The notes under the pieces: generated by a model
What the model saw: only the letters and a program-made list of their open reading frames with translations
Databases searched by the model: none
Told to the model about the DNA's origin: nothing
Source: Omphalotus guepiniiformis
Taxonomy: Eukaryota; Basidiomycota; Agaricomycetes; Agaricales; Omphalotaceae
Direction of reading: 5' to 3'
Length of the DNA stretch: 64,000 bases
Assembly (NCBI GenBank): GCA_028554645.1
Contig: JAQOOI010000052.1
Location: 62,001-126,000 of the forward strand
Translations under genes and position numbers: made by a program
In this document: positions 14,466 through 63,801 of the stretch, piece by piece
Layout: every line of letters begins with the position of its first letter
Position numbering within the stretch: the stretch's first letter is position 1

Positions 14466-14920
14466 TGTCAGCGACTCGAGTTGTCAAACTCAAATAACCA
14501 AACACAAGAATCTCAGTTTTCACACGAATAAGAGAAAAGCAGAAAATAGAATTGAGAAGAGGAATGATACAAAGATGTTATGCTAAGTACAAGTCTAAAC
14601 TCGAGGAGTTATTGACAAGATCGAAGCTAAAGAAATATCTACCTAAGCGGACTTGTTATATACGTAAATAAAACCCTAAACCCTGGGCTATAACCCTTGA
14701 CTAATCCACCGTGTGTCTACCATGAGTTCGATCGCCTCAAGTGTTTCATTAATGATCGTGATCGCCTTGAGGTCTACATGCTTGATCTCGATCATTATGC
14801 TACCTACGTGTGTATTTAATATAACCCTAGATCTATAACTTAAGATGCTATCTACTGATAATAAAAGTGTCCATATGTACAAACAATGAGATAAGATGAA
14901 AAAAGAAAACGTTCGTAACA
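14466..14920 (-). repeat. LTR of chromovirus copy 1
   Basis: 455 bp, starting TGTTACGAAC and ending CTGACA on the minus strand, and collinear with the LTRs at 28885-29337 and 34709-35160. It includes a TATATAAT box and the downstream word TAGCTTCGATCTTG, which is complementary to the sequence just after the LTR. Confidence 0.9.
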
Positions 14921-22166: not shown

Positions 22167-25100
22167 ATGAGTCAATCCTCTGTAGGTCGTACTATGAATC
22201 CTTTTCAATCTCAATCAAGCAACAACAGGTGGGTTTAAATTGTGATTAAAGCGGACTACTCAATGTTTATTTTCCTTTTTATAAGCTTTCAGCAGCAAAC
22301 TTCAACTGGGCATTCTATATCACCAGACAATGGTCAATATATCAAGTAGGTGTGATCAATTGAAATTCATTCAGACACTGATAAGTATCCCAGTGTTGGT
22401 ATTCTCAATAATGCCTCTGGTATCAATATCACAGGTGGTACTTTCAATGCTATTGGAGGAAATGTCTACACTGTCGATGGTATGACAACCATATTACTTC
22501 TATATACAGAAAGTGTATCTAACTGTAATGGGTCTAGGATCAGACCTCAAGTCCACTATTATCAATTGGCTCAAAGCACCAAACTTCATTATGAACTTCA
22601 CTAATGTGAGAGACAACAAAGTGACAGGCACTGGGGCCTGGCTTCTGGATGATTCAAGATACATTCAATGGGAGAAGAAAGGTGGATTACTTTGGATACA
22701 AGGCAAAGGCAAGTCATCTTTGTTTATCACACTCTTTCTATCACATAATAAATATGTTGTGTAGCTGGTGCTGGCAAGACCTATTTGTGGTAAGACATTA
22801 CTAAAATATTGTTCAATTCAGAATCTAATATCCAAGATGGATTATTAGCACTACAGTCATTGACCATCTTCTCAATGACAGTCAACCTAGCAAAGTGCTA
22901 GCATTCTATCACTACTTTGATTCATGTGATACTGCAAAGCAGCATTACAGAGGTCTCCTTTTGTCTCTGTTAGCTCAGATCACTGGATGCTCTGAAGATG
23001 TTTCTTCTGAGATAGAAGACATGTATAAGACTTACAAAAACAAAAATCAGCTGCCAACTCTTGCTGTTCTTGAAGGCACTATCAGAGCTGCACTTGCTTC
23101 TTGCTCATCTATGAAATCTGTGTATATAATCATAGATGCAATGGATGAGGCAAGTGAGCCAGCCCAGCATGAGGTCTCCATCTTCATTCAGGATCTGCTT
23201 GCTCTAAGCAAGATGCACGTGCTGGTGACCAGCCGTCATTCTTTGAGAGTTGAACTCAAAGAGAGTATCACTATACAGCTAAATGCTGAGAATATCAGTG
23301 AAGATGTCAAGATGTATCTGGATGAATATATCCCAAGGCTGGAGCTTCAAGGCCATATGGAGAGGGAAGTGACACAAGTCTTAATGGATAAAACACATGG
23401 ACAGTAAGGCATTTTCTTCTTAGTTGACTTGTAACTGACATTATCAAGATTCAGATGGGTGGACTGTCAAATGGACACACTTACACAATGTGGAACTCCA
23501 AGAGCTGTGAAACAAGCCTTGAAGGAACTTCCACCTGATCTTGAAACTACATACTTTGAAAAGCTACACCAGATATCTATGAGGCACAAGAAAGATGCCA
23601 AACTCATCTTTCAGTGTATTATATCTGCTGTGAGGCCTCTATCTACAAAGGAGTTGGCTGCAATAATGGCCACTGATTTGGACAGCCAGACATTTGAGGC
23701 AGAGTATGCAGACCATGGTCTTGATGGAAGACTTCACAAAATTGTTGACACCACATTGGTGACTATACAGCAGGATCTTGTGCAGTTGGCTCATCATTCT
23801 GTGAAAGAATTTCTGATCACAGACTGTATGAAATTTGAGCAAACTGCATATTTCAAGATTGACAATAGACTGGCTCATGGTGTGATGGCACACACCTGCA
23901 TTATCTATTTGCTTTACTATGGCAGACAGACTCATCTCAATGGCATTGTGAATCTTGAAGAATTTCCATTGGCCGGATATGCAGCAGAACACTGGATGTA
24001 TCATGGAAGATCAATGGAAACTATGAATGAAACGACAATCAAGAGTGGAATGGAGCTACTTGATAACACCAAGGTGGAATTTCCTGAGTGGTTGAAGTTA
24101 TACATGCCAGATAATTTTTGGAACTCTATGAATATGCAGTTGACATTGATTGAAGTTCAAGAACCTCTTTATTATGCAGTCTATGGAGGCCTCTTGGGGA
24201 TTGTAGGAAGACTTAGACAGAAAGGTGCAAATGTGAATGCTAAGGGTGGTTTCTTTAGAAATGCTCTGCAAGCTTCTGCATCCTCTGGACATGAGGCTGT
24301 TGTCAAGCTTCTTCTCTCTGCAGGTGCAGATGTCAATGCTGAGGAGGGAGAGTATGGAAATGCTCTCCTATGTGCTGTTGAATCTGGAAATGAGGCCATT
24401 GTGAAGGTTCTTCTCTCTGCAGGTGCAGATGTCAATACTTGGGGTGGTCTTGAAGCTGCTGTTCGATCTGGGCATGAGGCCATTGTGAAGCTTCTTCTCT
24501 CTGCAGGTGCAGATGTCAATTGGAGTGGTCTTTATGGAAGTTCTCTCCAAGTTGCTGTTCAATCTGAAAATGAGGACATTGTGAAGATTCTTCTCTCTGC
24601 AGGTGCAGATGTCAATGCTGGTAGTGAGCAGTATGAAAATGCTCTCAAAGATGCTGTTTATTCTGGAAATGAGGCCATTGTGAAAATTCTTCTCTCTGCA
24701 GGTGCAGATGTCAATGCTGATGGTGGATGGTCTGGAAATGCTCTCCTATGTGCTGTTCACTCTGGACATGAGGCCATTGTGAAGCTTCTTCTCTCTGCAG
24801 GTGCAGATGTGAATGCTGAGGATGATTGGTCTGGAACTGCTCTCCTATGTGCTATTCAATCTGAAAATGAGGCCATTGTGAAGGTTCTACTCTCTGCAGG
24901 TGCAGATGTCAATGCTAAGTGTCTTTTCTATAGCAATGCTCTTGAAGCTGCTATTCCCTCTGGGAATGAGGCCATTGTGAAGCTTCTTCTCTCTGCAGGT
25001 GCAGATGTCAATGCTGAGAGTGGTCAGTGTGGAAATGCTTTCCTACGTGCTGTTCACTCTGGAAATAAGGCCATTGTGGAGGTTCTTCTCTCTGCAGGTG

Positions 25101-25540
25101 CAGATGTCAATGCTAATGGAAATGCTCTTGAAGCTGCTGTTCAATCTGGGCATAAGGCCATTGTGAAGCTTCTTCTATCTGCAGGTGCAGATGTCAATGC
25201 AAAGGGTAGTTCCTATGGGAATGCTCTTGTAGCTGCTGCTCAATCTAGAAATGAGGCCATTGTGAAGCTTCTTCTCTCTGCAGGTGCAGATGTCAATGCT
25301 GAGGGTGGATATTATGGAACTGCTCTGCAAGCTGCTGCTAATTCTGGAAATGAAGCCATTGTAAAGCTTCTTCTCTCTGCAGGTGCAGATGTCAATGCTG
25401 AGGATGGATCTTATGGATGTGCTTTGCAAGCTGCTGCAAATTCTGGAAATGAGGCTATTGTGAAGCTTCTTCTCTCTGCAGGTGCAGATGTCAATGCTCT
25501 TGATAAAAAAACCAGATTTTCTTTTCACATTGCTTCTTAG
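22167..25540 (+). CDS. NACHT (STAND NTPase) protein with C-terminal ankyrin repeats
   Basis: A fungal NOD-like receptor. NACHT proteins act as NTP-driven switches in cell death and non-self recognition, with the C-terminal repeats as sensor. Exons: 22167-22228, 22286-22345, 22394-22479, 22538-22708, 22765-22789, 22849-23403 and 23449-25540; total 3051 nt, 1016 residues. The N-terminus holds the agaric-type INITGGTFNAIGGNVYTV segment. The P-loop (GKAGAGKTYL, about residues 125-134) is split by an intron with a GC donor (GCAAGT at 22709). Walker B is VYIIIDAMDEAS near 225, followed by the arm LVTSRH and ELPPDLETTYFEKL. Ankyrin repeats run from about 575 to 1005, 13 of them with the identical end LLSAGADVN. 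CpG is scarce compared with neighbours. Frame is open throughout. Confidence 0.88.
24205..25499 (+). repeat. Tandem ankyrin-coding repeats, nearly identical
   Basis: About 14 units of roughly 90-102 bp. The words cttcttctctctgcaggtgc and agatgtcaat recur almost unchanged in 13 units, while the stretch coding the loop before the next helix (EEGEYG, EDDWSG, KCLFYS, ESGQCG and so on) varies. Two units (near 24440 and 25110) are shorter, lacking a few codons but staying in frame. Confidence 0.93.
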
Positions 25541-28884: not shown

Positions 28885-29337
28885 TGTTACGAACATTTTC
28901 TTTTTCATCTTATCTCATTGTTTGTACATATAGACACTTTTATTACCAGTAGATAACATCGTAAGTTATAGATCTAGGGTTATATTAAATACACACGTAT
29001 GTAGCATGATGATCAAGATCAAGTATGTAGACCTCAAGGCGATCACGATCATTAATGAAGTACTTGAGGCGATCGAACTCATGGTAGACACACGGTGGAT
29101 TAGTCAAGGGTTATAGCCCAGGGTTTAGGGTTTTATTTACGTATATAATAAGTCCGCTTAGGTAGATATTTCTTTAGCTTCAATCTTGTCAATAACTCCT
29201 CGAGTTTAGACTTGTACTTAGCATAACTTCTTTGTATCATTCCTCTTCTCAATTCTATTTCCTGCTTTTCTCTAATTCGTGTGAAACTGAGATTCTTGTG
29301 TTTGGTTATTTGAGTTTGACAACTCGAGTCACTGACA
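28885..29337 (+). repeat. 5' LTR of chromovirus copy 2
   Basis: 453 bp, TGTTACGAACATTTTC to CTGACA. It contains a TATA box at 29142-29150 and an inferred transcription start near 29175. Confidence 0.93.
29142..29188 (+). promoter_or_regulatory. LTR promoter: TATA box and inferred RNA start
   Basis: TATATAATA at 29142-29150 lies about 33 bp before TAGCTTCAATCTTG (29175-29188). In the other two LTRs this word reads TAGCTTCGATCTTG. Its position fits an RNA 5' end, and it is complementary to the sequence directly after the LTR. Confidence 0.55.
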
Positions 29338-29351
29338 TAAGATCGAAGCTA
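29338..29351 (+). other. Primer-binding site, self-priming type
   Basis: TAAGATCGAAGCTA immediately follows the 5' LTR. It does not begin TGG as tRNA-primed sites do. It pairs over 13 bases with TAGCTTCGATCTT in the 3' LTR and the copy 1 LTR (one mismatch in this 5' LTR). In Tf1/sushi elements the mRNA 5' end itself primes in this way. Confidence 0.65.
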
Positions 29352-29872
29352 CACAACTCACCCGACCAACACAATTCAAATCGCCTTCTTGTTGCTATTT
29401 CAGTAGCAAGTAAGTTTCTCTTGACCTTTCACACGCTTACTTCATTTTCTCCCTTTGATATTCGGGTTTCCGTCCGAATTAGGAATCTGTGCTCCATTAG
29501 AGTAATTGCGCCTATAGTACAAACAAGTAACGTTGAGTCTGACTCGGTACTGGCAGCAGAAAGCATCGTCTGATAACCAACCTTCGGGGAGGGGACTTTG
29601 CGCTTGGGGAACGAGGTGCACTCCTAGAAAGGCACGCCCAGGTTTACTCAGCAAGTGAGCACAGATTTAGGAACTCGTTTATTAGAGGCAGAAAAGGTCC
29701 CGAAATCTCTTTGTGAGGTTACTGACGGACCGAAGTAAACTCTACCATTACGGAATCTTGGGGGAACTTTAGCAGTCTCTTCGAAGAAACCACTATCCCA
29801 TCACCTATCACACCTTCCTACAAATCTCTTGCATCATCTCCCTATTCTACCCGACCTTCTACCCCTATCAGA

Positions 29873-30763
29873 ATGTCTGAAACCGACACCTCGCGAGGAA
29901 AATCACTCCTCAACAAACCCGACAATTTCACCGGCGTCAAATCTGAATTTAAGAATTGGCGACGGAGATTGTTCACCTATATCCGTGATAAGAAGAATGG
30001 TATCACGACAGATGATGAAAGGATCGACGTTGCGATCTCTTTCATGAATGGAAAGCTTGTGGACGGATGGGTGAATAATTACTACAACACCCATTTTGAC
30101 CAAGACAACGAGAAGTGGCAGAAGGACTGGGCGCACTTCAAGCAAGCCTTGAACAAGGTGTTCCTAGATTCCGGTCTGCAGAGGACAGCGCAGGAGAAGG
30201 TGGAGTTGTTGAAGCAGGGAGCGGGAACGGCGGAGGAGTATTTCCAGAAGTTGGAAATACTGTTGACGGAGGCGGATTACAAGAAGGATGACCCGTACGT
30301 GGTGCGGCTCATCGAGAAGGGCATTAATGAAAAAACAATTGATGCCATTTACACGAGGGATGAGCTACCCAAAGTGTACGACGAATGGAAGGACATAGTG
30401 ATCAAGATTGATCAGCTATGGAGAAGGCGTCAGGAATGGCGCAAGAACCAGAACAGACCGGCGTTTACGCCAAGAAGGGAACAAAGTCCGCAGCAAGCGG
30501 CAGGAAGTGGTGATCGGAGAGACGCCACAGGAACGACCTTTGGGGGTACAGGTAAACCCATGGACATTGACGCAGCCCGAAGGAATGGGCAGTGTTTCAA
30601 TTGCGGACAGAGGGGGCATATCTCGCGGGATTGTCCAGCAAAGCGGGGTCAGAGAGTGAGGCAGGTGAACGTACAGGAGGAAGAGAAGAAAGAAGAACAG
30701 CCACCGAGCTGGTTCTTGAACTGGTTGAAATCGGATGCGGGTTTTGTCAGAGCTCAGAAGTGA
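29873..30763 (+). CDS. gag: Gag protein of chromovirus copy 2
   Basis: 296 residues, intact; forms the capsid shell and binds RNA. The capsid-like N-terminal region (FKNWRRRLFTYIRDKK) is followed by a CCHC knuckle (CFNCGQRGHISRDCP) near residue 244 and an acidic/basic tail (QEEEKKEEQPPSWFLNWL). It differs from copy 1 by only a few residues (SETDTS/SEIDTS, HFKQALNKVF/QFKQALNKAF). It ends 30763, with pol starting upstream in another frame. Confidence 0.92.
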   Translation: MSETDTSRGKSLLNKPDNFTGVKSEFKNWRRRLFTYIRDKKNGITTDDERIDVAISFMNGKLVDGWVNNYYNTHFDQDNEKWQKDWAHFKQALNKVFLDSGLQRTAQEKVELLKQGAGTAEEYFQKLEILLTEADYKKDDPYVVRLIEKGINEKTIDAIYTRDELPKVYDEWKDIVIKIDQLWRRRQEWRKNQNRPAFTPRREQSPQQAAGSGDRRDATGTTFGGTGKPMDIDAARRNGQCFNCGQRGHISRDCPAKRGQRVRQVNVQEEEKKEEQPPSWFLNWLKSDAGFVRAQK

Positions 30764-33700
30764 ATACAGGTCCTTCTGAGTTAGAATCGGAACAGTCTAG
30801 TGTAGATCACAAGGACAGCAATTTTCACTTTGTATTTAATCATCCTGAGAATAAATTTGCGTCAGTATCTACAAAGTCCGATTCAAAACCTGTGAGAGAA
30901 CGTTATCCGCCAAATTCGGCCAAGTTCACCAGAATGGATAGCGCAGAGAGTAAGGGAGGATGAGTCAGAACGAGCGGTGGGAATTTTGAGAGCATGGATG
31001 CCAACCTGTCGGGCCAGGGAAGCATCGGAAGAAACAGTTGCCCAGATCCGGTCATTGGACATTAGCGAAGCCGTCACAGCCGTAAAGTCACTCAAAAAAA
31101 ACTTGCGGTTCGTAAAAGGTACTAAGGGCAGAGATCTCAAGCTGTCTGTTACAATCGATGACATCGAAAGTGGCAAGCAGATAGAAACATCGGCATTACT
31201 TGACAGTGGAGCAACGGGTTCTTGCGTCAATAAAGAATTCGTAGAGCGACATGGTTTAACTGTTAAGAAATTACCAGTAAAGATGCCGGTATACAATGCT
31301 GATGGTACCTTAAACGAAGACGGTTCAATTGAAGGATTCATAGAAGTCAGATTGGTAATGGGAGATCATGCAGAACGCATTGAACTTGCTGTTACAAATT
31401 TAGGCAAAACGGACATTTTCTTAGGACTCGATTGGTTAAGACGTCATAACCCCAATATAGATTGGAATGACTCGACTTTAAAGTTTGACCGATGTCCTAA
31501 GAAGTGTGGTTACATACCGTATTACCTAAAACCTGAATCTGATGCTGAAGTCCGGGAACTGGAAGAAGGGGATCGGTTGTTTTACCTAAATTGGGATGGA
31601 TATCTTCGGAGTATGAACTTTGGAAAAGGCAAAAAGACTGAGTCAAAAGCAGACAAGTACGTCAATGAGTACAAGGATGTTTTTGATGAAGCCGATTTCC
31701 AAAATTTACCCGAACGAAGACCCTGGGACCATGCAATTGAACTGAAGCCAGACTTTACGCCAGTAGATTGCAAGGTCTATCCATTAAATCCTTCGGAACA
31801 GAAAGTTTTAGATGAGTTCATTAAGGAAAATCTGAAATCTGGACGAATTAGACCATCAAAGTCACCGATGGCCTCACCATTCTTCTTTGTGGCAAAGAAA
31901 GATGGGAAACTTCGACCCGTCCAGGATTATCGGAAATTGAATGAAGCAACGATAAAGAACAAATACCCATTGCCGCTCATTCAAGAACTCATTGATAAAC
32001 TGAAGGATTCGAAAGTATTTTCGAAAATGGATGTTCGATGGGGATACAATAATATCCGGATCAAAGAAGGTAATGAGTGGAAGGCGGCATTTAGGACTAA
32101 TCGGGGGCTCTTTGAACCAACGGTTATGTTCTTTGGTCTTACAAATTCTCCGGCGACCTTCCAAGTGTTCATGAATCATATCTTAAGGGATTTGATCAAC
32201 GAAGGTCACGTCATGGTGTACTTAGACGATATCTTGGTTTTCACAAATACAATCGAAGAGCACGAGTCAATTGTAAAACAGGTGTTAGATATATTACAAC
32301 AACACAAGTTGTATCTTAGACCTGAAAAGTGCGAATTTGAGACCAGTAATGTTGAGTACCTTGGAGTGTTTGTAGGAAATGGACAAGTGCGGATGGATCC
32401 AAAGAAAGTCAAAGCGGTAAAAGAATGGAAAATACCAGGAAACAAGAAGGAAGTACAGTCCTTCTTGGGTTTCTGCAACTTCTACCGACGATTTATCCGA
32501 GGATTTAGTCAAGTGGCAAAACCATTGTCATCACTGACCGGGAATTCAAAGTGGGAATGGACAGAGCAACAACAGCAGGCATTCGAAGAACTCAAAAAGT
32601 AGAATTGCCGAAGAAGTAGTTCTAACTATATCCCGTGATCATGGACAATTCAGAGTCGAGGCAGATTCATCAGATTATGCGAACGGAGCTGTCTTATCAC
32701 AAAAGATAGATGGAAAATGGTGGCCTATTGCGTTCAGATCTAGATCTCTAAATGAAACGGAACGTAATTATGAGATCTATGATAAGGAAATGATGGCCAT
32801 TATGGATTCCTTAGCAGATTGGAGACAGTATCTGATGGGTGCAGAAGAGTCATTTGAGATCTATACAGATCATCAAAATCTTCAGTATTTCAAAAAACCT
32901 CAGAAATTGAATCGCCGACAAGCCCGATGGATCACTGAATTATCCGAATACGACTTTACATTGATTCATAAACCCGGAAAGTCAATGGGAAAGCCAGATG
33001 CATTGTCCAGGATGGCCAATCATGAGACGGGGGAGAAAGACAATGAGGACGTGGTACTTTTAAAGCCGGAACTTTTTTTGATCAACAGACTAGAGATGCC
33101 CGAGGACGAGATCTTAGATCTTATAAAGAAGAAGTCGAAAGTACGGGATAATCTAGTAAATAAGGCTTTGGAAGGAAAAGAGAAGGATTGGATTGAGTCA
33201 GAGGAAGGAATTGTGACGTGGCAGGATAGAATTTACGTGCCTATTGATAATAGGTTACGAGGGAAGATCATTGGATTGCATCATGATACTGTTCTTACGG
33301 GACATCCAGGGCAGTTCAAAACCATGGAATTGGTGACGAGAAACTATTGGTGGCCGGGAATTACTCAGGACGTACGGAAATACGTTAAAGGGTGTGAAAA
33401 GTGTCAAGCCACTAAGATTCATCAAACCAAACCAACGGGAACACTAGTCACAAATAATGTTCCACAAGGTCCCTGGGAAGCCATAGGAACAGATCTGATC
33501 GGAGAACTACCGGAAGCCGGAGGTTTTAATGCCATAAGTGTGACTGTGGACCATTTCACAAAACGAACACGTCTGGTACCCACACACATGTCGTTAACGT
33601 CTGAGGGAATGGCCAGAATCTATAGGGATAAAATCTTTCCTATACATGGATTACCGAGAAAGATTATTCATGATCGGGGACCCCAATATCATTCCCGATT

Positions 33701-34697
33701 CATAAAGGAACTATACCGGTTATTAGGCATTCAAGGAAGCTTCACAACAGCATATCACCCACAGACGAATGGACAGACGGAACGGATGAACCAAGAGATT
33801 GAACATTATCTCCGGTTATTCATCAATCAACATCAGAACGACTGGCATGAATGGTTACCAACAGCAGAGTTTGTGTTGAATGATAGGATACACTCAGCCA
33901 CGGGTGTCACTCCGTTCTATGCGGATATGGGACGACATCCATATAAGGGAACAGCTCCAAAAACTCCGTCGGCAAACCCCACAGCACAGGAATTTGCCGA
34001 TAAGATGGTCAAGATCAGGGACGAAGTAGGAGCAGCGCTCAAAAAGGCAAAGGAAGACATGACTCGGTATTACGACAAGAAAAGGAAACCATCAGTCGAA
34101 TACAAGCCTAATGACAAAGTATGGCTTGAAGCGACAAATCTGACTTCTGATCGACCAATGAAGAAGTTGGATGATAAACGATTTGGTCCTTTCGAAGTTG
34201 TAAAGAAAATTGGAACGACGTCATACCAGCTAAAGATCCCAAAGACTTGGAAGAGAATACATCCAGTCTTTAACGAAGTTCTACTGTCACCCTATTATCC
34301 GCCTGAATTCCCCGAGCAGCCTAAGAATGATAATCCGTCACCAGTGATAGAAGGAGAAGAACCGGAGTTCAAAGTGGAAGAGATAGTAGATTCAGGGAAA
34401 TATAGGGGAGGGAGATTTGGATACAAAGTCCAATGGAAGGGATACTCGCGGCACGAACAGACATGGGAACCATTAGCAAACCTTGCAAACGCAAAAGAAG
34501 CAATCGAAGAGTTCCATAAAAAATTCCCCACTAAACCACGACCACCTCAGTTAAGAAAGATTGAGGTCCCAATTTCCTTATTCCCGACGTCATTGTTACG
34601 ACCTATCCCTGAAGCATGTACGGAAGTAGTAGAAACGAAGAAGATGCCGACAGAAGCATTAGCAGTGAAGTTAGGGCGATGGGGACATTGTCTCTAA
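30592..34697 (+). pseudogene. pol: Pol polyprotein of chromovirus copy 2, two frame breaks
   Basis: Domains in order: protease ALLDSGATGS (31195); reverse transcriptase SPFFFVAKKDGKLRPVQDYR (31876), SKMDVRWGYNNI, VYLDDILVF (32218, the YxDD site); RNase H (about 32640-33000); integrase zinc part LHHDTVLTGH..CEKCQ (33278-33410) and catalytic D,D,E at GTDLIGEL (33487), IHDRGPQYH (33665) and NGQTERMNQ (33769); chromodomain FKVEEIVDSGKYRGGRFGY to WKGYSRHEQTWEP (34369-34480), expected to guide insertion to marked chromatin. A 10-bp insertion (ggccaagttc at about 30911-30920), absent in copy 1, shifts the frame. One extra base near 32600, after the EELKK codons, causes a second break. The element therefore cannot move on its own product. 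Confidence 0.92.
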
Positions 34698-34708
34698 GGA
34701 GGGGGTCA

Positions 34709-35160
34709 TGTTACGAACGTTTTCTTTTTCATCTTATCTCATTGTTTGTGCATATAGACACTTTTATTATCAGTACATAACATCGTAAGTTATAGATCTA
34801 GGGCTATATTAAATACACATGTATGTAGCATGATGATCGAGATCAAGCATGTAGACCTCAAAGTGATCACGATCATTAATGAAGTACTTGAGGTGATCGA
34901 ACTCATGGTAGACACACGGTGGATTAGTCAAGGGTTATAGCCCAGGGTTTAGGGTTTTATTTACGTATATAATAAGTCCGTTTAGGTAGATATTTCTTTA
35001 GCTTCGATCTTGTCAATAACTCGTCGAGTTTAGACTTGTACTTAGCATACTTCTCTGTATTGTCTCTCTTCTCAATTCCACTTTCTGCTTTTCTCTTACT
35101 CGTGTGAAACTAAGATCATTGTGTTTGGTTATTTGAGTTTGATAACTCGAGTCGCTGACA
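34709..35160 (+). repeat. 3' LTR of chromovirus copy 2
   Basis: 452 bp, TGTTACGAACGTTTTC to CTGACA. It follows the pol stop (34697) by 11 bp, including a purine-rich tract (aaggagggggt, 34697-34706) suitable as plus-strand primer. It ends exactly where the inverted repeat begins. Confidence 0.93.
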
Positions 35161-37970
35161 GTTATAATATATCTACCATACTTCTACAGTAAGTTCCATA
35201 GGGTAGTATGGTATCTTGAGAGTGTGACAAATTGTCACAATGTAAGTCTTCCATTAGTCCACCAAGAATTATGGAAGTCTTATTTAAAAAAAATATTATT
35301 ATAAATTTCTTTGGCTATATACTGGATTTACACTATACATATGGGAGTATATATCTCTTGCACTGCATATGCCTTACAGTCAAGATATCTCCAGGAACAA
35401 TCTAATAGAATAATAAAAAACACATGTAATTCTATACTGATCTAAACAATAAATATCATTTCAGTTTCTAGGGAAGTATTGAAAATTCATTTGCATAGTT
35501 TCAGGAATCTATATATAAGTAATATACATAGTATCATCATATTCTCATGAAATTCTCATGAAAGTATTGATATTAGATTATAATACTTTCAGAGAAATAT
35601 TGAATGTTAGTTTGCATAATTCCACAGATACATTGAAAAGTGGTTTACATGGTATCAACATAAATCTGAAGAAGTATTGATTTGTAATTCACATACTGTT
35701 ATCATACCTCTAGAGAGAAGTATTTAATGATGGTTTACATAGTTCCAGAAATATATTCAAATTTAATCCATAGAATTACTATGAATTTAGAAAAGTATTA
35801 ATGATAATTGGCATTATGATTGTTTTAGAGAAATATTGAAAGTTGATTTGTACAGTTTCAGTGATCCATTCAAAGGTTGTATTATACATAGTATTAGTAT
35901 TTCCAGAAAGATCTTGATACTGGATTATGATAGTTTTAGAGAAGAATTGAATGTTAGTATGATAACTCTAGAGATACATATAAAAGTAGCATAGAATAAA
36001 AATAAATCTAGAGAAGTACTGAAGTATATTCCATATACTGCCACTATACTTCCAGAGAAGTAGTATTATTGAATTATCATATTTTCAGAGAGGTATTAGA
36101 TGATAGTTTACATAGTCCTAGTGGTTTCCATAGATTTACAATAATTTTAGGGAAGTATTCAAATAAAATCAGCATTGTTTCAGAGAAATATTGAAGGTTG
36201 ATTTGTATAGTTTCAGTTACTCAAAGGTTGTATTATACATAGTATTAGTATTTTCAGAAAAATCTTGATACTGGATTATGATAATTTTAGAAAAGAATTG
36301 AATGTTAATTTGATAACTCCAGAGATACATATAGAAGTGGTTTACACAGTATCAACATAAATCTGGAGAAGTGTTAGTATGTGATTCTTCCATTTTCACA
36401 CTTTCAGAGAAGTATTAATTATTAGTTTGCATAATTCCACAGAAGTATTAATATGTGGTCTACATAATGTCATCATGTCTTAATATCACAGTTCAGAGAA
36501 GTATATTAGTTTGCCTAGTTCCAGAGATATACTCACAAGTAAAACCATAGTATTATCATAATTTCAGAGAAATATTGATAATAAATTGTAATGGTTTCAA
36601 GAAAGAATAATAGTTTGCATAGTTTCAGATATATATTCAAAAGTGATTTCTGTAAAATCACCATAATTTTAGGGAAGTATTAATATTGGATTTTCACAAG
36701 TCCAGAATAATATTCAATATCAGTTTGCATAACATCACAGAAGTATTAATATGCAGTCTACATAGTACCAGCATAAGTCAATAAAGATATTGATATTGAA
36801 TTACCATAGTTCCAGTGAAGTATTGAATATTAGATTGCATAATTTTAAGATACTATTTGAAAGTTGTTTCCATAGTATTACTATACTTTCAGAAAAGTAT
36901 TAACATTGAATGATAATAGTGTCAGAGAAGTAGTGAAATGTGATCTACATAGTGTTACCATAGTTCAAGAAAATTATGGATATGTTATTTACATAGTGTT
37001 ATTGTAGTGTCAGAGAAGTATTGATATTGAATTATCACAATTCCAGGGAGGTAGCATCATCTAGCAATATCTAGCATCAGCTGGCATCAGCTAGCACCAC
37101 CTATCAGTAGCTGGCATTAGCTAGCAGCAGCTATCAGCATCTGTCAGGAGCTGACATCAGCTGACACCAGCTGGCAGGACCTGGGAGCAGCTAGCATTAG
37201 CTGATACCAGCTGGCACCAACTAGCACCAGCAGCTGACATCAGTGGACATCAGCTAGCATTAGCTGGCATCAGGTGAGAGCAGCTAGCAGCAGCTCAAAT
37301 CATCTAGCAGCAGCTGACATTGGCTGAGACTGGCTAGGAGCAACAAGCAGCAGCTGGCATGAGCTAGCAGCAGCTAACAGTATCTATTAGCAGCTCATAT
37401 CATATAGCAGCAGCTAACAGTATCTATCAGCAGCTCATATCATATAGCACCAGCTGACATTAGATGACATCAGCTGACATCAGCTCAAATTGTCTGGCAG
37501 CAGCTGGCCTCAGCTGACATCAGGTAGCAGAAGCTAGGAGCAGTGCACATCAGCTAATGTCATGTGGCAGCAGGTGGCATTAGCTAGCAGCAGCTAACAT
37601 CAGCTCAAATCATCTAGCAGCAGCTGACATTAGCTGACACCTGCAAGCAGAAGCTACAAGCTGTGCATATCAGCTGGCATCAACTGATACCTGCTAGCAG
37701 GAGCTAGGAGCAGTGCACATTAGCTAGCACCAGCTGACACTAGCTAGCAAGAGCTAGGAGCAGTGCACCTCAGCTGATGTGGTCTGGCAGCAGCTGGCAT
37801 CAGCTAGTAGCAGCTAACATCAGCTCAAATCATCTGGCAGCAGCTTAAATCACCTGGCAGCAGCTGGCATCAGCTGGCATCAGCTGGCAGTAGCTGTCAT
37901 CAGCTAGCTGTAGTTGACAGTAGTTCTCATCAGCTAGCAGTAGTTGGCAGTAGCTCTCACCAGCTAGGAG
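35161..37970 (+). repeat. Left arm of the giant inverted repeat
   Basis: About 2.8 kb. The outer 1.9 kb consists of diverged repeats of the type agagaagtattgatattg, agtttgcatagttccagag, gtttacatagtatcaacat, spaced about 50-60 bp. The inner 0.9 kb is the 10-bp AGCT repeat. Confidence 0.92.
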
Positions 37971-40503
37971 TTCATATAGCTGAGATTAGCTGCTAACAGC
38001 TTCTAGCATCAGCTAGTATCATCTAGCACTCTAGCATCATCCAGTGGCAGCTTGCATCATCTACCAGCGGATTGCATTATCTAACATATACACTATAACT
38101 GGGCCAATCCTAGTGTCACAACTACTCCCAGCTGGTGTCAGCTGATGTTAGCTGCTGCCAGATGATTTGAGCTGATGCTAGCTGATACCAGCTGATGCCA
38201 GCTGCTCCCAGCTGCTCCTAGCTGATCCTAGCTAATGCTAGCTTCTCCCAGCTGATGCAAGCTGGTGTCAGCTGATGTTAGCTGCTACCAGATGATTTGA
38301 GCTGGTGCTAGCTGATTTCAGCTGCTCCCAGCTAGTGTCACCACTACTCCCAGCTGCTCCCAGCTGATGCTAGCTAATGCTAGCTGCTCCCAGCAAGCTG
38401 GTGTCAGCTGATGTTAGCTGCTGCCACATGATTTGAGCTGATGCTAGCTGATACCAGTTGATGCCAGCTAGTGTCACAACTACTCCCAGCTGATATTAGC
38501 TGCTGCAAGCTGATGCCAGCTGCTTCCAGCTGGTGCTAGCTAATGCTAGCTGCTGATGCAAGCTGATACCAGCTGCTCCCAGCTGATGCCAGCTAATGCT
38601 AGCTGCTCCCAGCTGATGTTAGCTGCTGCCACATGATTTGAGCTGATGCTAGCTTCTCCCAGCTGATGCAAGCTGGTGTCAGCTGATGTTAGCTGCTACC
38701 AGATGATTTGAGCTGGTGCTAGCTGATTTCAGCTGCTCCCAGCTAGTGTCACCACTACTCCCAGCTGCTCCCAGCTGATGCTAGCTAATGCTAGCTGCTC
38801 CCAGCAAGCTGGTGTCAGCTGATGTTAGCTGCTGCCACATGATTTGAGCTGATGCTAGCTGATACCAGTTGATGCCAGCTAGTGTCACAACTACTCCCAG
38901 CTGATATTAGCTGCTGCAAGCTGATGCCAGCTGCTTCCAGCTGGTGCTAGCTAATGCTAGCTGCTGATGCAAGCTGATACCAGCTGCTCCCAGCTGATGC
39001 CAGCTAATGCTAGCTGCTCCCAGCTGATGCAAGTTGGCTTCCAGCTGGTGCTAGCTAATGCTAGCTGCTGATGCAAGCTGATACCAGCTGCTCCCAGCTG
39101 ATGCCAGCTAATGCTAGCTGCTCCCAGCTGATGCAAGTTGGTGTCAGCTGATATTAGCTGCTGCCAGATGATTTGAGCTGGTCCTAGCTGATACCAGCTG
39201 CTCCCAGCTAGTGTCACAACTACTCCCAGCTGATATTAGCTGCTGCAAGCTGATGCTAGCTGCTCCCAGCTGATGCTAGCTAATGGTAGCTGCTCTCAGC
39301 TGATGCAAGCTGGTGTCAGCTGATGCTAGCTAATGCTAGCTGCTGATGCAAGCTGATGCCATCCCAGCTAGTGTCAGCTGCTCCCAGCTAGTGTTACAAC
39401 TACTCCCAGCTGATATTAGCTGATGCCAGCTGCTCCCAGCTGATGCTAGCTGCTCCCAGCTGCTCCTAGCTATTGTCAGCTGCTGCCAGATGGTTTGAGC
39501 TGTGGCTAGCTGATGCCAGCTGCTCTCTGATGCCATAGCTACTCTCAGCTGCTCCCAGCTAATACAAGATGATTTGAGCTGCTGCTAGGTGGTGTCAGCT
39601 GATGAGCCAGCTACTCCTAGCTGGTGAGAGCTACTGCCAACTACTGCTAGCTGATGAGAACTACTGTCAACTACAGCTAGCTGATGACAGCTACTGCCAG
39701 CTGATGACAGCTACTGCCAGCTGATGCCAGCTGATGCCAGCTGCTGCCAGGTGATTTAAGCTGCTGCCAGATGATTTGAGCTGATGTTAGCTGCTACTAG
39801 CTGATGCCAGCTGCTGCCAGACCACATCAGCTGAGGTGCACTGCTCCTAGCTCCTGCTAGCAGGTATCAGTTGATGCCAGCTGATATGCACAGCTTGTAG
39901 CTTCTGCTTGCAGGTGTCAGCTAATGTCAGCTGCTGCTAGATGATTTGAGCTGATGTTAGCTGCTGCTAGCTAATGCCACCTGCTGCCACATGACATTAG
40001 CTGATGTGCACTGCTCCTAGCTTCTGCTACCTGATGTCAGCTGAGGCCAGCTGCTGCCAGACAATTTGAGCTGATGTCAGCTGATGTCATCTAATGTCAG
40101 CTGGTGCTATATGATATGAGCTGCTGATAGATACTGTTAGCTGCTGCTATATGATATGAGCTGCTAATAGATACTGTTAGCTGCTGCTAGCTCATGCCAG
40201 CTGCTGCTTGTTGCTCCTAGCCAGTCTCAGCCAATGTCAGCTGCTGCTAGATGATTTGAGCTGCTGCTAGCTGCTCTCACCTGATGCCAGCTAATGCTAG
40301 CTGATGTCCACTGATGTCAGCTGCTGGTGCTAGTTGGTGCCAGCTGGTATCAGCTAATGCTAGCTGCTCCCAGGTCCTGCCAGCTGGTGTCAGCTGATGT
40401 CAGCTCCTGACAGATGCTGATAGCTGCTGCTAGCTAATGCCAGCTACTGATAGGTGGTGCTAGCTGATGCCAGCTGATGCTAGATATTGCTAGATGATGC
40501 TAC
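37051..40503. repeat. 10-bp AGCT satellite array with inverted halves
   Basis: Units follow AGCTGGCATC-like words up to about 38050 and the reverse complement GATGCCAGCT-like words from about 38110 on. AGCT recurs at a spacing of 10 bp over long runs (for example 38171-38340). Variants: agctgctccc, agctaatgct, agctgatacc, agctggtgtc. Every tenth base step carries the same palindromic tetramer. Confidence 0.9.
38241..39028 (+). repeat. 411-bp tandem duplication in the loop
   Basis: gcttctcccagctgatgcaa starts at 38241 and again at 38652, and the next 370 bp or so repeat nearly word for word. A further duplication of about 104 bp (word cttccagctggtgctagc at about 38934 and 39040) follows. These make the loop longer on the right of the orientation switch. 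Confidence 0.85.
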
Positions 40504-42393
40504 CTCCCTGGAATTGTGATAATTCAATATCAATACTTCTCTGACACTACAATAACACTATGTAAATAACATATCCATAATTTTCTTGAACTATGGTAAC
40601 ACTATGTAGATCACATTTCACTACTTCTCTGACACTATTATCATTCAATGTTAATACTTTTCTGAAAGTATAGTAATACTATGGAAACAACTTTCAAATA
40701 GTATCTTAAAATTATGCAATCTAATATTCAATACTTCACTGGAACTATGGTAATTCAATATCAATATCTTTATTGACTTATGCTGGTACTATGTAGACTG
40801 CATATTAATACTTCTGTGATGTTATGCAAACTGATATTGAATATTATTCTGGACTTGTGAAAATCCAATATTAATACTTCCCTAAAATTATGGTGATTTT
40901 ACAGAAATCACTTTTGAATATATATCTGAAACTATGCAAACTATTATTCTTTCTTGAAACCATTACAATTTATTATCAATATTTCTCTGAAATTATGATA
41001 ATACTATGGTTTTACTTGTGAGTATATCTCTGGAACTAGGCAAACTAATATACTTCTCTGAACTGTGATATTAAGACATGATGACATTATGTAGACCACA
41101 TATTAATACTTCTGTGGAATTATGCAAACTAATAATTAATACTTCTCTGAAAGTGTGAAAATGGAAGAATCACATACTAACACTTCTCCAGATTTATGTT
41201 GATACTGTGTAAACCACTTCTATATGTATCTCTGGAGTTATCAAATTAACATTCAATTCTTTTCTAAAATTATCATAATCCAGTATCAAGATTTTTCTGA
41301 AAATACTAATACTATGTATAATACAACCTTTGAGTAACTGAAACTATACAAATCAACCTTCAATATTTCTCTGAAACAATGCTGATTTTATTTGAATACT
41401 TCCCTAAAATTATTGTAAATCTATGGAAACCACTAGGACTATGTAAACTATCATCTAATACCTCTCTGAAAATATGATAATTCAATAATACTACTTCTCT
41501 GGAAGTATAGTGGCAGTATATGGAATATACTTCAGTACTTCTCTAGATTTATTTTTATTCTATGCTACTTTTATATGTATCTCTAGAGTTATCATACTAA
41601 CATTCAATTCTTCTCTAAAACTATCATAATCCAGTATCAAGATCTTTCTGGAAATACTAATACTATGTATAATACAACCTTTGAATGGATCACTGAAACT
41701 GTACAAATCAACTTTCAATATTTCTCTAAAACAATCATAATGCCAATTATCATTAATACTTTTCTAAATTCATAGTAATTCTATGGATTAAATTTGAATA
41801 TATTTCTGGAACTATGTAAACCATCATTAAATACTTCTCTCTAGAGGTATGATAACAGTATGTGAATTACAAATCAATACTTCTTCAGATTTATGTTGAT
41901 ACCATGTAAACCACTTTTCAATGTATCTGTGGAATTATGCAAACTAACATTCAATATTTCTCTGAAAGTATTATAATCTAATATCAATACTTTCATGAGA
42001 ATTTCATGAGAATATGATGATACTATGTATATTACTTATATATAGATTCCTGAAACTATGCAAATGAATTTTCAATACTTCCCTAGAAACTGAAATGATA
42101 TTTATTGTTTAGATCAGTATAGAATTACATGTGTTTTTTATTATTCTATTAGATTGTTCCTGGAGATATCTTGACTGTAAGGCATATGCAGTGCAAGAGA
42201 TATATACTCCCATATGTATAGTGTAAATCCAGTATATAGCCAAAGAAATTTATAATAATATTTTTTTTAAATAAGACTTCCATAATTCTTGGTGGACTAA
42301 TGGAAGACTTACATTGTGACAATTTGTCACACTCTCAAGATACCATACTACCCTCTGGAACTTACTGTAGAAGTATGGTAGATATATTATAAC
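39614..42393 (-). repeat. Right arm of the giant inverted repeat
   Basis: Reverse complement of the left arm, well over 95 percent identical by eye. High identity without coding constraint implies recent formation or continuing gene conversion between the arms. Confidence 0.92.
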
Positions 42394-42517
42394 TCTAAGA
42401 AATTTTTTTTAAAATAAGTTTTTGATAAATCTCAAGACTTACATTAATAATTCTCAAAATATTATCAGCATATTTCTCACATAATGCCATGGGAACTATG
42501 CTTTACCGGGCCCAGTG

Positions 42518-45500
42518 TGACTACAAACGATACAACAACAAGACGATTGTTGGGAGATGCCAGACGACTTCTCACTTAGTGGAGTTGGTTATAGGAGGAG
42601 ACGACAAGTTCAATGAGTGACCAGACGATCCACTCTTATTCACACTACACCCACAGGCTCCGTGGTACCAGATGATTCCGCTTGTAAACACTTAGGCACA
42701 CTGACTTATAAACTAACGCGACGGTTAACACTTTAAAACTTCTAATCACTCAGAGGGACTTAAGCTTTTCCACACACAAATGCTATTAGCTCTATGGGGG
42801 GCTCGGGAACCTGTCCTTCCTTGCCTAGGTTCTATTTCTTATATACAGTATTTCTATTTACATAGTACAAACAAATGTCGCGATACTTGACAGTTATGAG
42901 TGATGTGATGCATATGGTGCACCACGTAAGGTAGGAATGAAGTATAGTATGCGGGAACAGGGTATCCTATATTGGGTTATAATCTTGCCTTGTTTATAAA
43001 GTATTGCGGTAGTTTGCTAACACTGTATCTTCTTACGTGTTCTACTTCCGCGTTGTCAGAAGTACTTCATGGTACATCGTACATCTAGACCCTCCTGGGC
43101 TCAACAGTGGTCATTAGATATGACTAGCACACAGAGCTACCGCTACCTGGTTTCTAAGTCTGGCCCTCTGAGTCGGACCTTAGAACAAGTGCCGTGACGC
43201 TTTACTGGAGTGCATACTTAGGTAATACCTACACTGAGAAGACCTATTTAGTGCCGATCTACAGTCTTGTACACCTTTGTACACATATACTGGTGGTTGA
43301 ATGTGCGTTGATGAGAATGAAACGGGGAATAAAATGCTAAAGGGCTAATGAACAAAAACCCAAAAACAACCAAAACAACCAAGTCACTCCAAAGGTGCAA
43401 GTCTGAGGGGGCGTTGTCGAAGGTTCCACACGGCCAAACTTATGGCTTCTTTATTAGAACTTTATATCTTTATCACAAGAACTTTATAAGCTTTTTAAAT
43501 TGCACTAAGACAAAAAGTAGCACGAGACGGTTTTGAACAAGACAGGTGTTCACTGCACAATCACAACCAATTGACCACAAGATCAAATAACCAATTCCAA
43601 TAACACAACCAGTTCAATTTAACCAACAATGATCTTTATACAATATCACAATAAACACCGGACTATTAACAGACCAGGGCAACTTTATGTTTTTGGTAGG
43701 ATTTCCCTTCACAGGCACGATTCACGTTATAAAGACGATCCCCAGTGACCCTGTGACTCTATGGTACTCTCCTGGCTTTTCTCTCTCCAAATTACTGCCC
43801 TTTTATACATGCTGCCAGACCAAAAATAATAGAAACGGAAAATATAGCTAAACTGTCCTGTTTTATATATATACCTATATCCGTGTATGTAGGTTGTAAG
43901 TATCTGTGTCAAGTATGTCCATTATTACTTGTTATAGATCTATTTTATGAGGCAAACCTCAAAAATGCGTTTTAATTCCATTATTTTTATTGTGAGCAAT
44001 ATTCAGCCCCTTTATTTCATGTTTTACGGATTTCCTTGACATTTTCTCGGACATCCGGGTTCCATAGGATTAATCACCTGATGGAGATTATACCCCTCAA
44101 AGTATCACATTGTTCCGTCAAAGGAACTCCTTCAATTCAGTAGTATTCCGAGAAATTTTACTGATCGAGTTTTTACACCTCCTAACCGGTTTCTTGTCAA
44201 GCAATTTTCACTGGACAATTAATCGAAGCAAATTTCCTCGATCAACTTTTGTTCCTGGTGATTAATTAAGGAGTAAATACCCCAGAACTATTCTAGATCC
44301 ATTATTTCGACTCTATTTCACGTTCCATCCATTTTTAGTTCCCGCCGGGTTTTTAATCTTTATTGACTGGAGGAAGATGTTCCCCTAATAATTATATGAT
44401 GCAATTGACATTGTGATGTCAGAGTTCTTGTTACGAGATTGGGTGAGTCTGATTCAACAGTGAATGGCTATTGAACAATTCTCTACATCACAACTATACT
44501 GACCAGCCTAGAACCTTGATACACATTTTGTACTGTAGGTAATAGAACATGCTTTATTACTCAATTCACAACACATTTTGATTGACAAGGCGGGCATCTT
44601 TCAACCCTCTATATTCCTCACTGCAAATGCCTAAAGTGATTAATCACCTGGCTTTTAATGCAGGTGCCGAAAATTGGCGCATCAGCGTAATACACCACGG
44701 AACTTAGGACTATACAGTGTACTTAGTAGGTTTGTACTGGAGTGATCAATCCTGTGAGGCCGAAAATGGTAGTGGTATTCCTGCGGTCGTATCAGCGGCA
44801 AAATGGAAACAGAAACCTCAAGGAGATGAAGAAGACACAAAGAACATTATTGATGAATATGGGATGAATGTTAAGATCTCGACAAATTGTCCAAGCCTTG
44901 TAAATAACCAGTGAAAGATGTTATGAGACACGTAGCTAGCTAATGAGTTTAATGTTGAGACAATGTCGCTAAGCAGAACTTTGATGACAACAGCTTGATC
45001 TAATCAAGTCTTGATATAGTGCTACGAGTAGTGATGAGTAGTGCAATGTTGCACCTTAAAACAGTCTAGGCTTGAAATCATGCAGATTGAGAAACATTTT
45101 GGTTGTTCAAACATTGGAAACTGAACAATGAGGACTAGAGTCCACCCAGACTGCTAGTTGAAATATGGTAACACACTTAGATACTCAAGCCTGAGTGTAG
45201 AGTTAGCTACAGTACATGATATGGTACTTAGCAACTGTGACCAATGGGATTATGAAGAGAGATACTAGTTTTGCCTCTCAATTTGTATTGGAGTACCAAT
45301 GTTCCATGCTAATTTAAGGTGGTCAGACCCACCCTCTAAAGACTGGAGACTCTCATGAGTGTTGTTTGATTGTAATCCAAGGGAATTATGGAAGTTACAA
45401 TTCAATCTGAGAAACATCTAAGTCCACTAGACTATCTAACTCCAGCTGGTCTTGCTAACTCAGGTTGGCTGTAAGACTGAATGCTGAGAGTGCAGACAAT

Positions 45501-61122: not shown

Positions 61123-61130
61123 AATTATAC

Positions 61131-61490
61131 ACTCTGTACACCTGTATACACCATGTATACACCCTGTCACATGTGTATACACCTGTATACACCCATATAC
61201 ACCCTGTACACCTGTATACACACTGTCTGTATACAGGGTGACAGATGTACAGGGTGTATACAGGTATACAGGATGACATGTATACAGGATGTATACAGAG
61301 TGTATACAGGGTGGATACAGGGTGGATACAGGGTGTATACAGGGTGCATACAGAGTGTATACAGAGTGCATACAGGGTGTATACAGAGTGCATACAGAGT
61401 GTATACAGAGTGTATACAGAGTGTATACAGGTGGGAGTGTATACAGTGTGTATACAGAGTGTATATGGGTGTATACCTTGTCTGTATATA
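61131..61490. repeat. GTATACAGGGT satellite array A, with orientation switch
   Basis: 11-bp units. To about 61220 they read as the reverse complement (tgtatacaccc); after about 61230 they read gtatacagggt, giving a hairpin-like centre at cacactgtctgtatacaggg. Variants: gcatacagagt, ggatacagggt. Confidence 0.9.
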
Positions 61491-62300
61491 CCTCACCTTG
61501 GAAACATCTTCTGTACGCAAGTTTGTATATATTAACCCCTATGTTCTGTATACAGAGATATCAGTGTCCATCTACTAGGTCCATGCAGATGCATCCTGGA
61601 TGTATACACATGAGATATGCAAGATGAATTCACCTAATGTACAACTGTATCCATATACACAGACTATATACATAAATGATCCTGTTTACCATAGTTTTGT
61701 TATTTGTTTAACATATAGCCAGTATATATGAACAACCAAAACATAAATTTTACCATCAGATATTTAACATTACTTTCACATATGTTTAGCATAAGTTCAC
61801 AGTAATTTTCTGTCTGTTATTCTGGATCAATTTTAAATTGGTTTAGCATATTTTTCACACATCTACACCGCCAAGAATTCAACATAAATCCCACGGAAAA
61901 ATATTACAAATATGGTGAAATAACATGAAAAATTAAACTTTTGATGTAATTTCACCATATTTTTAACATTTTCACATGGAATTTATGTTGAATTGTTTGC
62001 AGTGCTATTCTATTTCTCTCTGTATTTAACTCTGAATATATCTTATTTGTTTAGCATATCTTCAGTATATTTGCACAAGCAAAACATGAATGTTATTTTA
62101 GAAACATTTAACATTAGTTTCACATTTGTTTAGCATAAGTTCACAGTAATATCCTGTCTGTTATTCTGAATTGATTTTGAATTGCTTTAGCATAGTTTCC
62201 ACACACCTTTTCCATTTGTCTCTGTATTTTATGATGAAACAATCATGATCTTGATTAACATAATTGCATCCAAAATTCAATATTTATTTTAAACAATTTT
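61484..62300 (+). repeat. AT-rich direct repeat block, copy 1 (with MITE)
   Basis: Matches 63102-63780 at an offset of about 1.62 kb up to 61865, then again from 62008. Shared words: cctcaccttggaaaca, tcagtgtccatctactaggt, gatgtatacacatgagatat, cacaagcaaaacatgaatgt. Confidence 0.9.
61866..62004. mobile_element. 139-bp MITE, CACYG ends, 3-bp target duplication
   Basis: The ends CACCGCCAAGAATTCAACAT and (bottom strand) CACTGCAAACAATTCAACAT form inverted repeats continuing imperfectly for about 58 bp. Flanking CTA at 61863-61865 and 62005-62007 is present once at the matching empty site near 63480. CACTR-like ends with a 3-bp duplication fit the CACTA (CMC) superfamily. Confidence 0.82.
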
Positions 62301-62309
62301 CTCAAAAAT

Positions 62310-63065
62310 AATGTATAGAGTGTATATAGGGTGTATACAGGTCTACAGGGTGTACTACAGGGTGTATACAGGGTGAGATGTATACAGGGTGCATACAGAG
62401 TGCATACAGAGTGCATACAGAGTGCATACAGGGTGTATACAGGGTGTATACAGGGTGCATACAGGGTGTATACAGGATGCATACAGGGTGTATACAGGGT
62501 GCATACAGGGTGCATACAGGGTGCATACAGGGTGTATACAGGGTGTATACAGGGTGTATACAGGGTGTATAATCCTGTATACAGGGTGGATACAGGGTGT
62601 ATACAGGGTCAGGCTGGATACAGAGTGTATACAGAGTGTATACAGGATGTATACAGGGTGCATACAGAGTGAATACAGGGTGCATACAGAGTGTATACAA
62701 AGTGCATACAGGGTGGATACAGGGTGGATACAGGGTGGATACAGAGTGCATACAGGGTGGATACAGAGTGCATACAGGGTGGATACAGGGTGTATACAGA
62801 GTGTATACAGGGTGGATACAGGGTGTATACAGGGTGTATACAAGGTGGATACAGGGTGTATACAGGGTGGATACAGAGTGCATACAGGGTGGATACAGGG
62901 TGTATACAGAGTGTATACAGGGTGGATACAGGGTGTATACAGGGTGGATACAGGGTGGATACAGGGTGTATACAGGGTGTATACAGGGTGTACACAGGTG
63001 TATACAGGGTGGATACAGGGTGTATACAGAGTGTATACAGGTATACAGGGTGACATGTATACAGG
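62310..63065 (+). repeat. GTATACAGGGT satellite array B
   Basis: About 750 bp of 11-bp units (roughly 65-70 by length), all in one orientation. Variants at position 2 (gTatac, gCatac, gGatac) and 9-10 (ggg, gag, gga). No stop codon arises in most frames, so long false ORFs occur on both strands. Confidence 0.95.
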
Positions 63066-63101
63066 GTGTATACAGAGTTTATATGGGTGTATACCTTGTC
63101 T

Positions 63102-63780: not shown

Positions 63781-63801
63781 GATAAGATTTTATGGAATTT
63801 A

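Follow-up and report, generated by a model that had tools for sequence, protein, structure and literature searches.

The 7357-bp palindrome at positions 35161-42517 of the window (the whole stretch of 64,000 nucleotides analysed here) is probably a gene-free, non-autonomous DNA transposon of the CACTA/EnSpm type from an agaricomycete fungus, served by a transposase in trans. Most likely, it consists of overgrown CACTA-type transposon ends that are mobilised by the enzyme of another element. Its tips, target duplications, an empty site and many copies establish it, at the level of the assembled sequence, as a real mobile element. It is unusual in its phased convergent AGCT arrays, its 11-bp-periodic arms, the near-absence of CpG and the homogenisation of the arms in each element. 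An earlier note on this DNA had taken the palindrome for a mobile, foldback-like inverted-repeat element, which the many copies and target duplications bear out. The note had also considered it the best candidate for an undescribed element type; in place of this, we propose an extreme non-autonomous variant of the CACTA/EnSpm superfamily. A cut-and-paste transposon would thus be reducible to its tips and kilobases of putative binding sites alone.

Architecture of the palindrome in the window

Self-comparison aligned the arms (35160-37971 versus 42394-39613) over 2812 positions with 97.97% identity, 27 mismatches and 23 gap openings, in agreement with the 2.8-kb arms with rare mismatches noted before. 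The pairing of p with 77554-p, claimed for the outer 1.9 kb, holds at 1899 of 1900 positions, the single mismatch being located at 35199. The absence of genes was likewise corroborated: the longest open reading frame (ORF) over 35161-42517, and the only one of at least 80 amino acids overlapping the palindrome, comprises 86 amino acids and has a GTG start. The ORF survey revealed neither a TNP2 nor a KDZ transposase in the window copy, and an Rfam search of the palindrome yielded no match at E <= 0.1, i.e. no RNA gene.

The outer arms, previously described as more or less unique, are AT-rich with an 11-bp periodicity. Short tandem repeats with a 10-bp AGCT core had correctly been recognised in the inner part, where AGCT occurs 243 times (37050-40510) and 150 of the 242 spacings equal 10 bp and a further 56 equal 20 bp; 200 mononucleotide shuffles gave a mean of 13 spacings of 10 bp. 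These 10-bp-phased arrays converge head to head. The orientation of their units turns once, near 38.06-38.11 kb, and everything downstream of this flip is the right-hand array (Table 1). The supposed 1.6-kb loop is therefore part of that array, and there is no separate loop.

Regarding the span of the palindrome, the right end at 42517 proved exact, while the left end lacks its tip and other copies extend about 125 bp farther outward. The element tip (CACTGGGCCC...) lies 124 bp outside the arm given in the earlier note and is present on the right. Judging from the sequence of copy C42, the left tip of the window copy has been replaced by a Ty3-type retrotransposon. A chance origin of the palindrome is excluded because the same structure recurs elsewhere in the genome.

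Only two CpG dinucleotides are present in the 7357 bp, and the observed/expected ratio is 0.007 compared with 0.79 for the rest of the window. CpG loss is not specific to the family, as CpG-poor tracts also occur elsewhere in the window (at about 22-27, 45-49 and 61-64 kb).

Table 1. Features of the palindrome and its surroundings (window coordinates)
Feature	Position	Strand	Remarks
Left flank common to C42	26473-28879	+	31 substitutions in 2407
Ty3-type chromodomain LTR retrotransposon	28885-35160	+	Adjoins left arm; replaces ~360 bp (including left tip) present in C42
LTRs of Ty3-type retrotransposon	28885-29337 and 34709-35160	+	93.4% identity
Left outer arm	35161-37050	+	AT-rich, ~27% GC, 11-bp periodicity, no CpG; partner: right outer arm
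Left AGCT array	37051-38060	+	One unit direction (CATCAGCT type), 10-bp spacing
Turning point of the two arrays	38061-38110		Boundaries by eye
Right AGCT array	38111-40510	+	Opposite unit direction (AGCTGATG type), 10-bp spacing; contains the former "loop"
Right outer arm	40511-42393	-	AT-rich; partner: left outer arm
Terminal 124 bp of right end	42394-42517	-	No left counterpart; tip CACTGGGCCC at 42508-42517 (reverse strand)
Right 3-bp target duplication TGA	42518-42520	+	C42 (same right flank) has TGA on either side
Right flank common to C42	42518-43535	+	13 substitutions in 1018

Copies, target duplications and an empty site

The search for copies in the fungus' own 42.5-Mb genome, suggested earlier, uncovered relatives at many places, and the family is multicopy. 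The 21-bp tip had 31 matches with up to three mismatches (control: 0), which start with CACTG in 29 cases and with CAATG in two. Target duplications at the insertion sites, also suggested for inspection, were exactly 3 bp long in 10 of 10 end pairs; the same held for 4 of 90 cross pairs. Since C78, C49/C31 and C20c had been paired with their flanks in view, the unselected count is 7 of 7. For the insertion C12, an empty site with one TGA was found at C76:474054, consistent with one precise insertion. No empty site was found for C79: the left flank gave matches to its own place, one match of 48 bp and otherwise matches to a dispersed repeat alone (about 453 bp).

Convergent arrays with a single flip, apart from stray units, characterise C54, C42, C12, C79, C55 and C20b; C39 has lost one array orientation. 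C20c, the ends of which share TAT and are 15% apart, is a composite and carries little weight as evidence. As the earlier note had surmised, the two arms are kept alike, and the sequences indicate that this applies within each element. C54 and C42 represent one shared insertion, and arm homogenisation can therefore be measured there against flanking DNA. As a separate observation, an ORF in C18 (C18:338568-339083) may be TET/JBP-like, as read by eye; the ORF next to it (L018:8402-9190) matched nothing in Pfam.

Superfamily assignment and rival explanations

The element was assigned to CACTA/EnSpm on three grounds: the tips begin with CACTG, the target duplications measure 3 bp and the subterminal repeats are arranged as mirror images. 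These correspond to hallmarks of the superfamily, namely CACT(A/G) tips, a 3-bp target duplication and short subterminal repeats in direct and inverted order. Passages on CNIRT6 of Cryptococcus neoformans describe a mobile CACTA element that shares with our family the CACTG tips, 3-bp duplications of variable sequence, a size of about 7.5 kb and a basidiomycete host (PMC12810828). CNIRT6 was shown to move, whereas mobility is read from sequence here, and it is described with a transposase gene and 24-bp terminal repeats, in contrast to gene-free copies with inverted repeats of at least 2.8 kb made up of short repeats (PMC12810828). The subterminal repeats of plant CACTA elements are described as bound cis-determinants that are unequal between the sides, and non-autonomous copies are mobilised in trans (PMC2613891). 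Like Tgmt* of soybean and En/Spm, as characterised there, our element has CACT tips, a 3-bp duplication and subterminal motifs in direct and inverted order with unequal sides. However, the plant repeats span 159 and 732 bp in an element of 20.5 kb and here they fill nearly the entire element; the 10- and 11-bp phasing and the near-absence of CpG also set it apart from the plant elements described in that source (PMC2613891). TET-bearing EnSpm families of rust fungi, also Basidiomycota, have similar CAC..GTG tips and 3-bp duplications but carry genes, and section 3.1.5 of that account does not mention palindromic repeat arms (Kojima 2025, PMC12730594). No fungal palindromic CACTA element was among the matches listed in one open-licence literature library.

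It is unlikely that this gene-free element belongs to a different superfamily that generates 3-bp duplications, e.g. PIF/Harbinger or a lineage related to it. Harbinger elements usually insert at TWA, a preference that the family does not share, as only two of its ten duplications (TTA or TAA) fit. Although 3-bp duplications occur in PIF/Harbinger too (Kojima 2025, PMC12730594), the CACTG tips agree with CACTA elements and argue against it.

Kinship with Drosophila FB, as proposed earlier, or with other Foldback/Galileo-like elements of the P superfamily is very improbable. FB duplications are 9 bp long. The architecture does match that reported for Drosophila Galileo, i.e. very long, kilobase inverted repeats with inner tandem repeats, gene-free copies and arms of variable length (PMC4168063). 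However, Galileo is a P superfamily member with duplications of 7-8 bp in the same account (PMC4168063), as opposed to exactly 3 bp in all ten pairs here, in a comparison that covers architecture and duplication length. Duplications of 7-9 bp were thus not found, and the 3-bp duplications together with the CACTG tips point to CACTA/EnSpm instead.

Equally improbable is a locus retained for hairpin RNA and small RNA instead of as a transposon. Transcripts of long near-perfect inverted repeats can form double-stranded RNA and the palindrome, if transcribed, could yield it, but dispersed copies, target duplications, the empty site and the lack of an Rfam match speak against this.

There is hardly more to be said for derivation from a KDZ transposon by deletion. 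A KDZ transposase (PF18758) was found inside copies C42 and C18. However, the KDZ unit of C42 is nested, with its own inverted ends of about 70 bp and a 7-bp duplication (GATGAGA) within the array, as seen by eye, and a copy of it resides on C16 without palindrome arms. KDZ duplications are moreover described as mostly 7-8 bp (4-8 bp for KDZ2/KDZ3) versus 3 bp here. The KDZ genes were dropped as the element's own transposase in view of the nested insertion in C42.

Near-identical arms are typical of assembly fold-back artefacts, but the arms and the flanks differ, several independent copies are flanked by duplications and an empty site is present, so that an artefact or a one-off palindrome is scarcely conceivable: both objections fail because the element is multicopy with target duplications, and for the family the artefact is refuted as judged from the assembled sequence.

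Proposed mechanism and a candidate transposase partner

For the CACTA/EnSpm-type element, we envisage that a TNP2 (EnSpm) transposase acting in trans would cut at the tips and insert the element at a new site. The 10-bp AGCT units and the 11-bp AT-rich units, each roughly matching one turn of the helix, are putative binding sites, either for the transposase or for a TNPA-like accessory protein, and may have expanded by tandem duplication until nothing else remained. Arm-to-arm conversion or copying would maintain the likeness of the arms of each element. CpG may already have been lost in the ancestor, and mobile copies would therefore be nearly without targets for CpG methylation. A more far-reaching scheme, which we put forward tentatively and regard as rather doubtful, is a CACTA-type family in which cis ends occupy the element in its entirety. 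Super-ends of several kilobases, phased with the helix and devoid of CpG, would capture the transposase or accessory protein so effectively that a giant autonomous partner (C78, 114.6 kb) would lose out to the gene-free copies, the absence of CpG would allow escape from methylation-based silencing, against which other fungal transposons use TET enzymes, and arm-to-arm conversion would match the end pairs. Two testable questions arise, namely whether CpG shedding is an escape from silencing by cytosine methylation and how long palindromes persist and are homogenised in a fungal genome.

TNP2 (PF02992) had 11 matches in the genome. The best of these, C78:84875-85270, which no other match equalled in score, is bracketed by two family ends at a distance of 114.6 kb from each other; both have the duplication CAA, and over 600 bp they differ by 0.5%. 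C78, of which all but about 77 kb was read, is a candidate for the partner that supplies the transposase; if real, such a partner would be a CACTA element of very large size. Two observations speak against this role: sequence at the interior edge of C78 recurs elsewhere in the genome, and the left array of C78 contains more than one flip. A scan of C78:76001-94000 for pairs of CACT(A/G) ends that agree in tip and duplication detected four weak candidates, about the number expected by chance according to a rough hand estimate, and this lends no support to a separate nested EnSpm element around the TNP2 gene. A DNA search with C78:80001-90000 listed neither a second copy of the TNP2 gene nor the query's own place, and is therefore no evidence that the gene is single-copy. 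At 79.1/93.1 kb, C78 contains an inverted repeat of 331 bp that looks, by eye, like a duplicated gene fragment.

Structure and dispersal of the palindrome family

The near-perfect palindrome described in the earlier note was recovered in a self-comparison of the window, and the proposed pairing of position p with 77554-p was found at 1899 of the 1900 outer positions. The claim that it is free of genes was likewise borne out, as a single open reading frame of at least 80 amino acids (86 amino acids) overlaps it. No Rfam family matching the palindrome was found. In the AT-rich outer arms, autocorrelation peaks at 33, 77, 44, 121 and 110, all multiples of 11. The inner region holds 243 AGCT motifs in 3.46 kb, spaced mainly by 10 bp or multiples thereof, the repeat unit being AGCT(G/A)(A/C)TG(C/T)(C/T). 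These units run in one direction on the left and in the opposite direction on the right, with a single flip apart from stray units, in the window copy (contig C54) and in the copies on contigs C42, C12, C79, C55 and C20 (copy b). In C39 a single orientation is retained, and the left array of C78 has two flips, which is at odds with a simple convergent picture.

Searching the genome with the outer arm showed that the sequence is multicopy: it matched many places in the 42.5-Mb, 80-contig assembly, and many of these matches form inverted pairs. The window itself starts at position 62001 of contig C54. Other copies extend approximately 125 bp beyond the arm as first delimited and end in CACTGGGCCC. 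As lower bounds, a search with the rightmost 188 bp of the window copy gave at least 30 matches, and one with the 21-bp tip, allowing at most 3 mismatches, at least 31 (control, 0). The right tip of the window copy and its TGA are intact, and a Ty3-type retrotransposon (by domains) occupies the place of approximately 360 bp, including the left tip, present in C42. We distinguished a young group (C54, C42, C12, C79 and C49/C31), copies at approximately 94-98% (C20a, C71 and C57), an older group that includes C55, C39, C20b, C18 and C46, and a third group (C65a, C78 and C71b) whose resemblance lies mainly in the tip and is patchy over the first 330 bp.

Coordinates of the palindrome and of related or neighboring features
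Feature	Location	Strand	Details
Window copy	window 35161-42517		
Inverted-repeat arms	window 35160-37971 and 42394-39613		97.97% identity over 2812 aligned positions
Inverted additional copy of the retrotransposon at 28885 (its first 2.3 kb)	window 12622-14920		95.4% (window self-comparison)
Ankyrin-repeat open frame	window 23435-25540	+	701 aa; coding sequence nearly without CpG
Long tandem minisatellite	window 61126-64000		self-similar on both strands; CpG nearly absent
Two ORFs	window 734-2613	-	ORF 1603-2613 28% identical to the C78 TNP2 transposase, E 2e-28
Empty site of the C12 insertion	C76 near 474054		one TGA
Eleventh end pair	C18:292412 and 363743		TTT at both ends; arm continues at 331557
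Nested KDZ transposon	C42:162121-177255		identified by its domains; own inverted ends of approximately 70 bp; 7-bp duplication within the array
T5orf172 (GIY-YIG-like) domain protein	L009 (contig stretch):7581-8024	-	E 4.7e-7; inside the KDZ element nested in C42
Family ends on C78	C78:29968 and 144541		114.6 kb apart; CAA at both
Top PF02992 (TNP2) match	C78:84875-85270		666-aa open frame

Insertion and classification

The suggested mobility gained support from target duplications, which were exact and 3 bp long in all ten end pairs (TGA, TGA, TTA, TAA, GAA, TCA, CTA, TAT, CAA and CAA); cross pairs of ends agreed in 4 of 90 cases. Because C78, C49/C31 and C20c were paired with their flanks in view, the unselected count is 7/7. 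The eleventh pair, on C18, was also found with flanks in view and stands outside these ten. The best proof of insertion is the empty site on C76, where both C12 flanks meet and the element is absent: the left flank aligns over 382 of 400 bp at 98.2%, with a 6-bp difference in its final 18 bp, and the right flank over 900 bp at 98.9%. Since the left and right flanks of the window copy both match those of C42, we infer that these two copies descend from a single insertion.

We file the palindrome as a gene-free variant of the CACTA type. CNIRT6 is described as a mobile CACTA element with CACTG tips and 3-bp duplications (PMC12810828), and the palindrome family has both. For plant CACTA elements, subterminal repeats are described as bound cis-determinants, and methylation may hinder the binding (PMC2613891). 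The kinship with Foldback elements put forward earlier was not upheld: the foldback-like Galileo is similar in shape, but its duplications are given as 7-8 bp (PMC4168063) as against 3 bp here. Searches of one open-licence library gave no match for repeats as abundant, as phased and as poor in CpG as these.

Arm similarity and CpG depletion

The view that the arms are kept alike agrees with comparisons of arms within and between elements. Over 1885 bp, partner arms differ at no position in C42, C12 and C49/C31 and at one in C54 and C79, and young elements differ from each other by 1-9 arm positions. Over the first 600 bp, the nearest relative of each arm was its partner in all six diverged elements (C55, C39, C20b, C18, C65a and C78); C12, C42 and C79 are too similar for this assay, and the ends of C20c are 15% apart. 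In the insertion shared by C54 and C42, the flanks differ at 31/2407 and 13/1018 positions and the outer arms at 3/1915 and 3/1883 (Fisher p = 3.5e-9). The whole elements differ by 8% in a loose alignment, so this difference must sit mainly in the arrays. Homogenisation thus seems to act on the outer arms, with turnover in the arrays. In C12, C42 and C79, base 12 counted from the tip is a stable left/right mark: left ends carry A and right ends carry G, in arms that are otherwise nearly identical.

The window copy contains 2 CpG in 7357 bp (observed/expected 0.007), compared with 0.79 in the remainder of the window and 0.89 both in the abutting LTR element and in the KDZ transposon nested in C42. 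Other family copies or parts of copies gave 0.009-0.037, and C65a 0.114. As independent young copies are nearly identical, the CpG loss would predate their spread. It is not unique to the family, since further window tracts (approximately 22-27, 45-49 and 61-64 kb) are CpG-poor; the tract with the ankyrin frame has 0.02-0.07 per kb row.

Nested elements and a candidate transposase partner

The family ends on C42 lie 22.5 kb apart, and the KDZ gene between them was rejected as the element's own because it belongs to a nested transposon, a copy of which lies on C16 without family arms. C49 and C31 each hold one half of a single element, both halves with CAA; the element is split by an LTR sequence that has duplicated the 5 bp CAGCT, and the C71 array is interrupted by an LTR resembling that of the window (both by eye). 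On C18, approximately 39 kb seems to be nested within the left tip, because the tip breaks after approximately 47 bp and the arm continues after repeated ATATGCTGA.

PF02992 had 11 matches in the genome, 10 of them above the cut-off. The top match sits between two family ends on C78 that differ by 0.5% over 600 bp, versus 13.8% to the next end. The named relatives of this gene examined among the 120 listed of 160 were from agaricomycetes. The host is itself an agaricomycete; for one gene of the window, identity to its relatives reached at most 79% among the 120 listed. Approximately 37 of the 114.6 kb were read; the interior starts at 41512 with sequence having a 95% copy on C18, no clean duplication was seen at the interior junctions, and a KDZ match at 104.6-105.3 kb also lies within the interval (contig stretches L038, L039, L042-L045 and L047). 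The interval is possibly a giant CACTA element, and C78 is a candidate transposase partner, not proof of one. Near the left edge of the window, a Pfam search of the two ORFs gave no match; by its similarity to the C78 protein, the ORF at 1603-2613 is a putative diverged EnSpm- or Plavaka-like gene.
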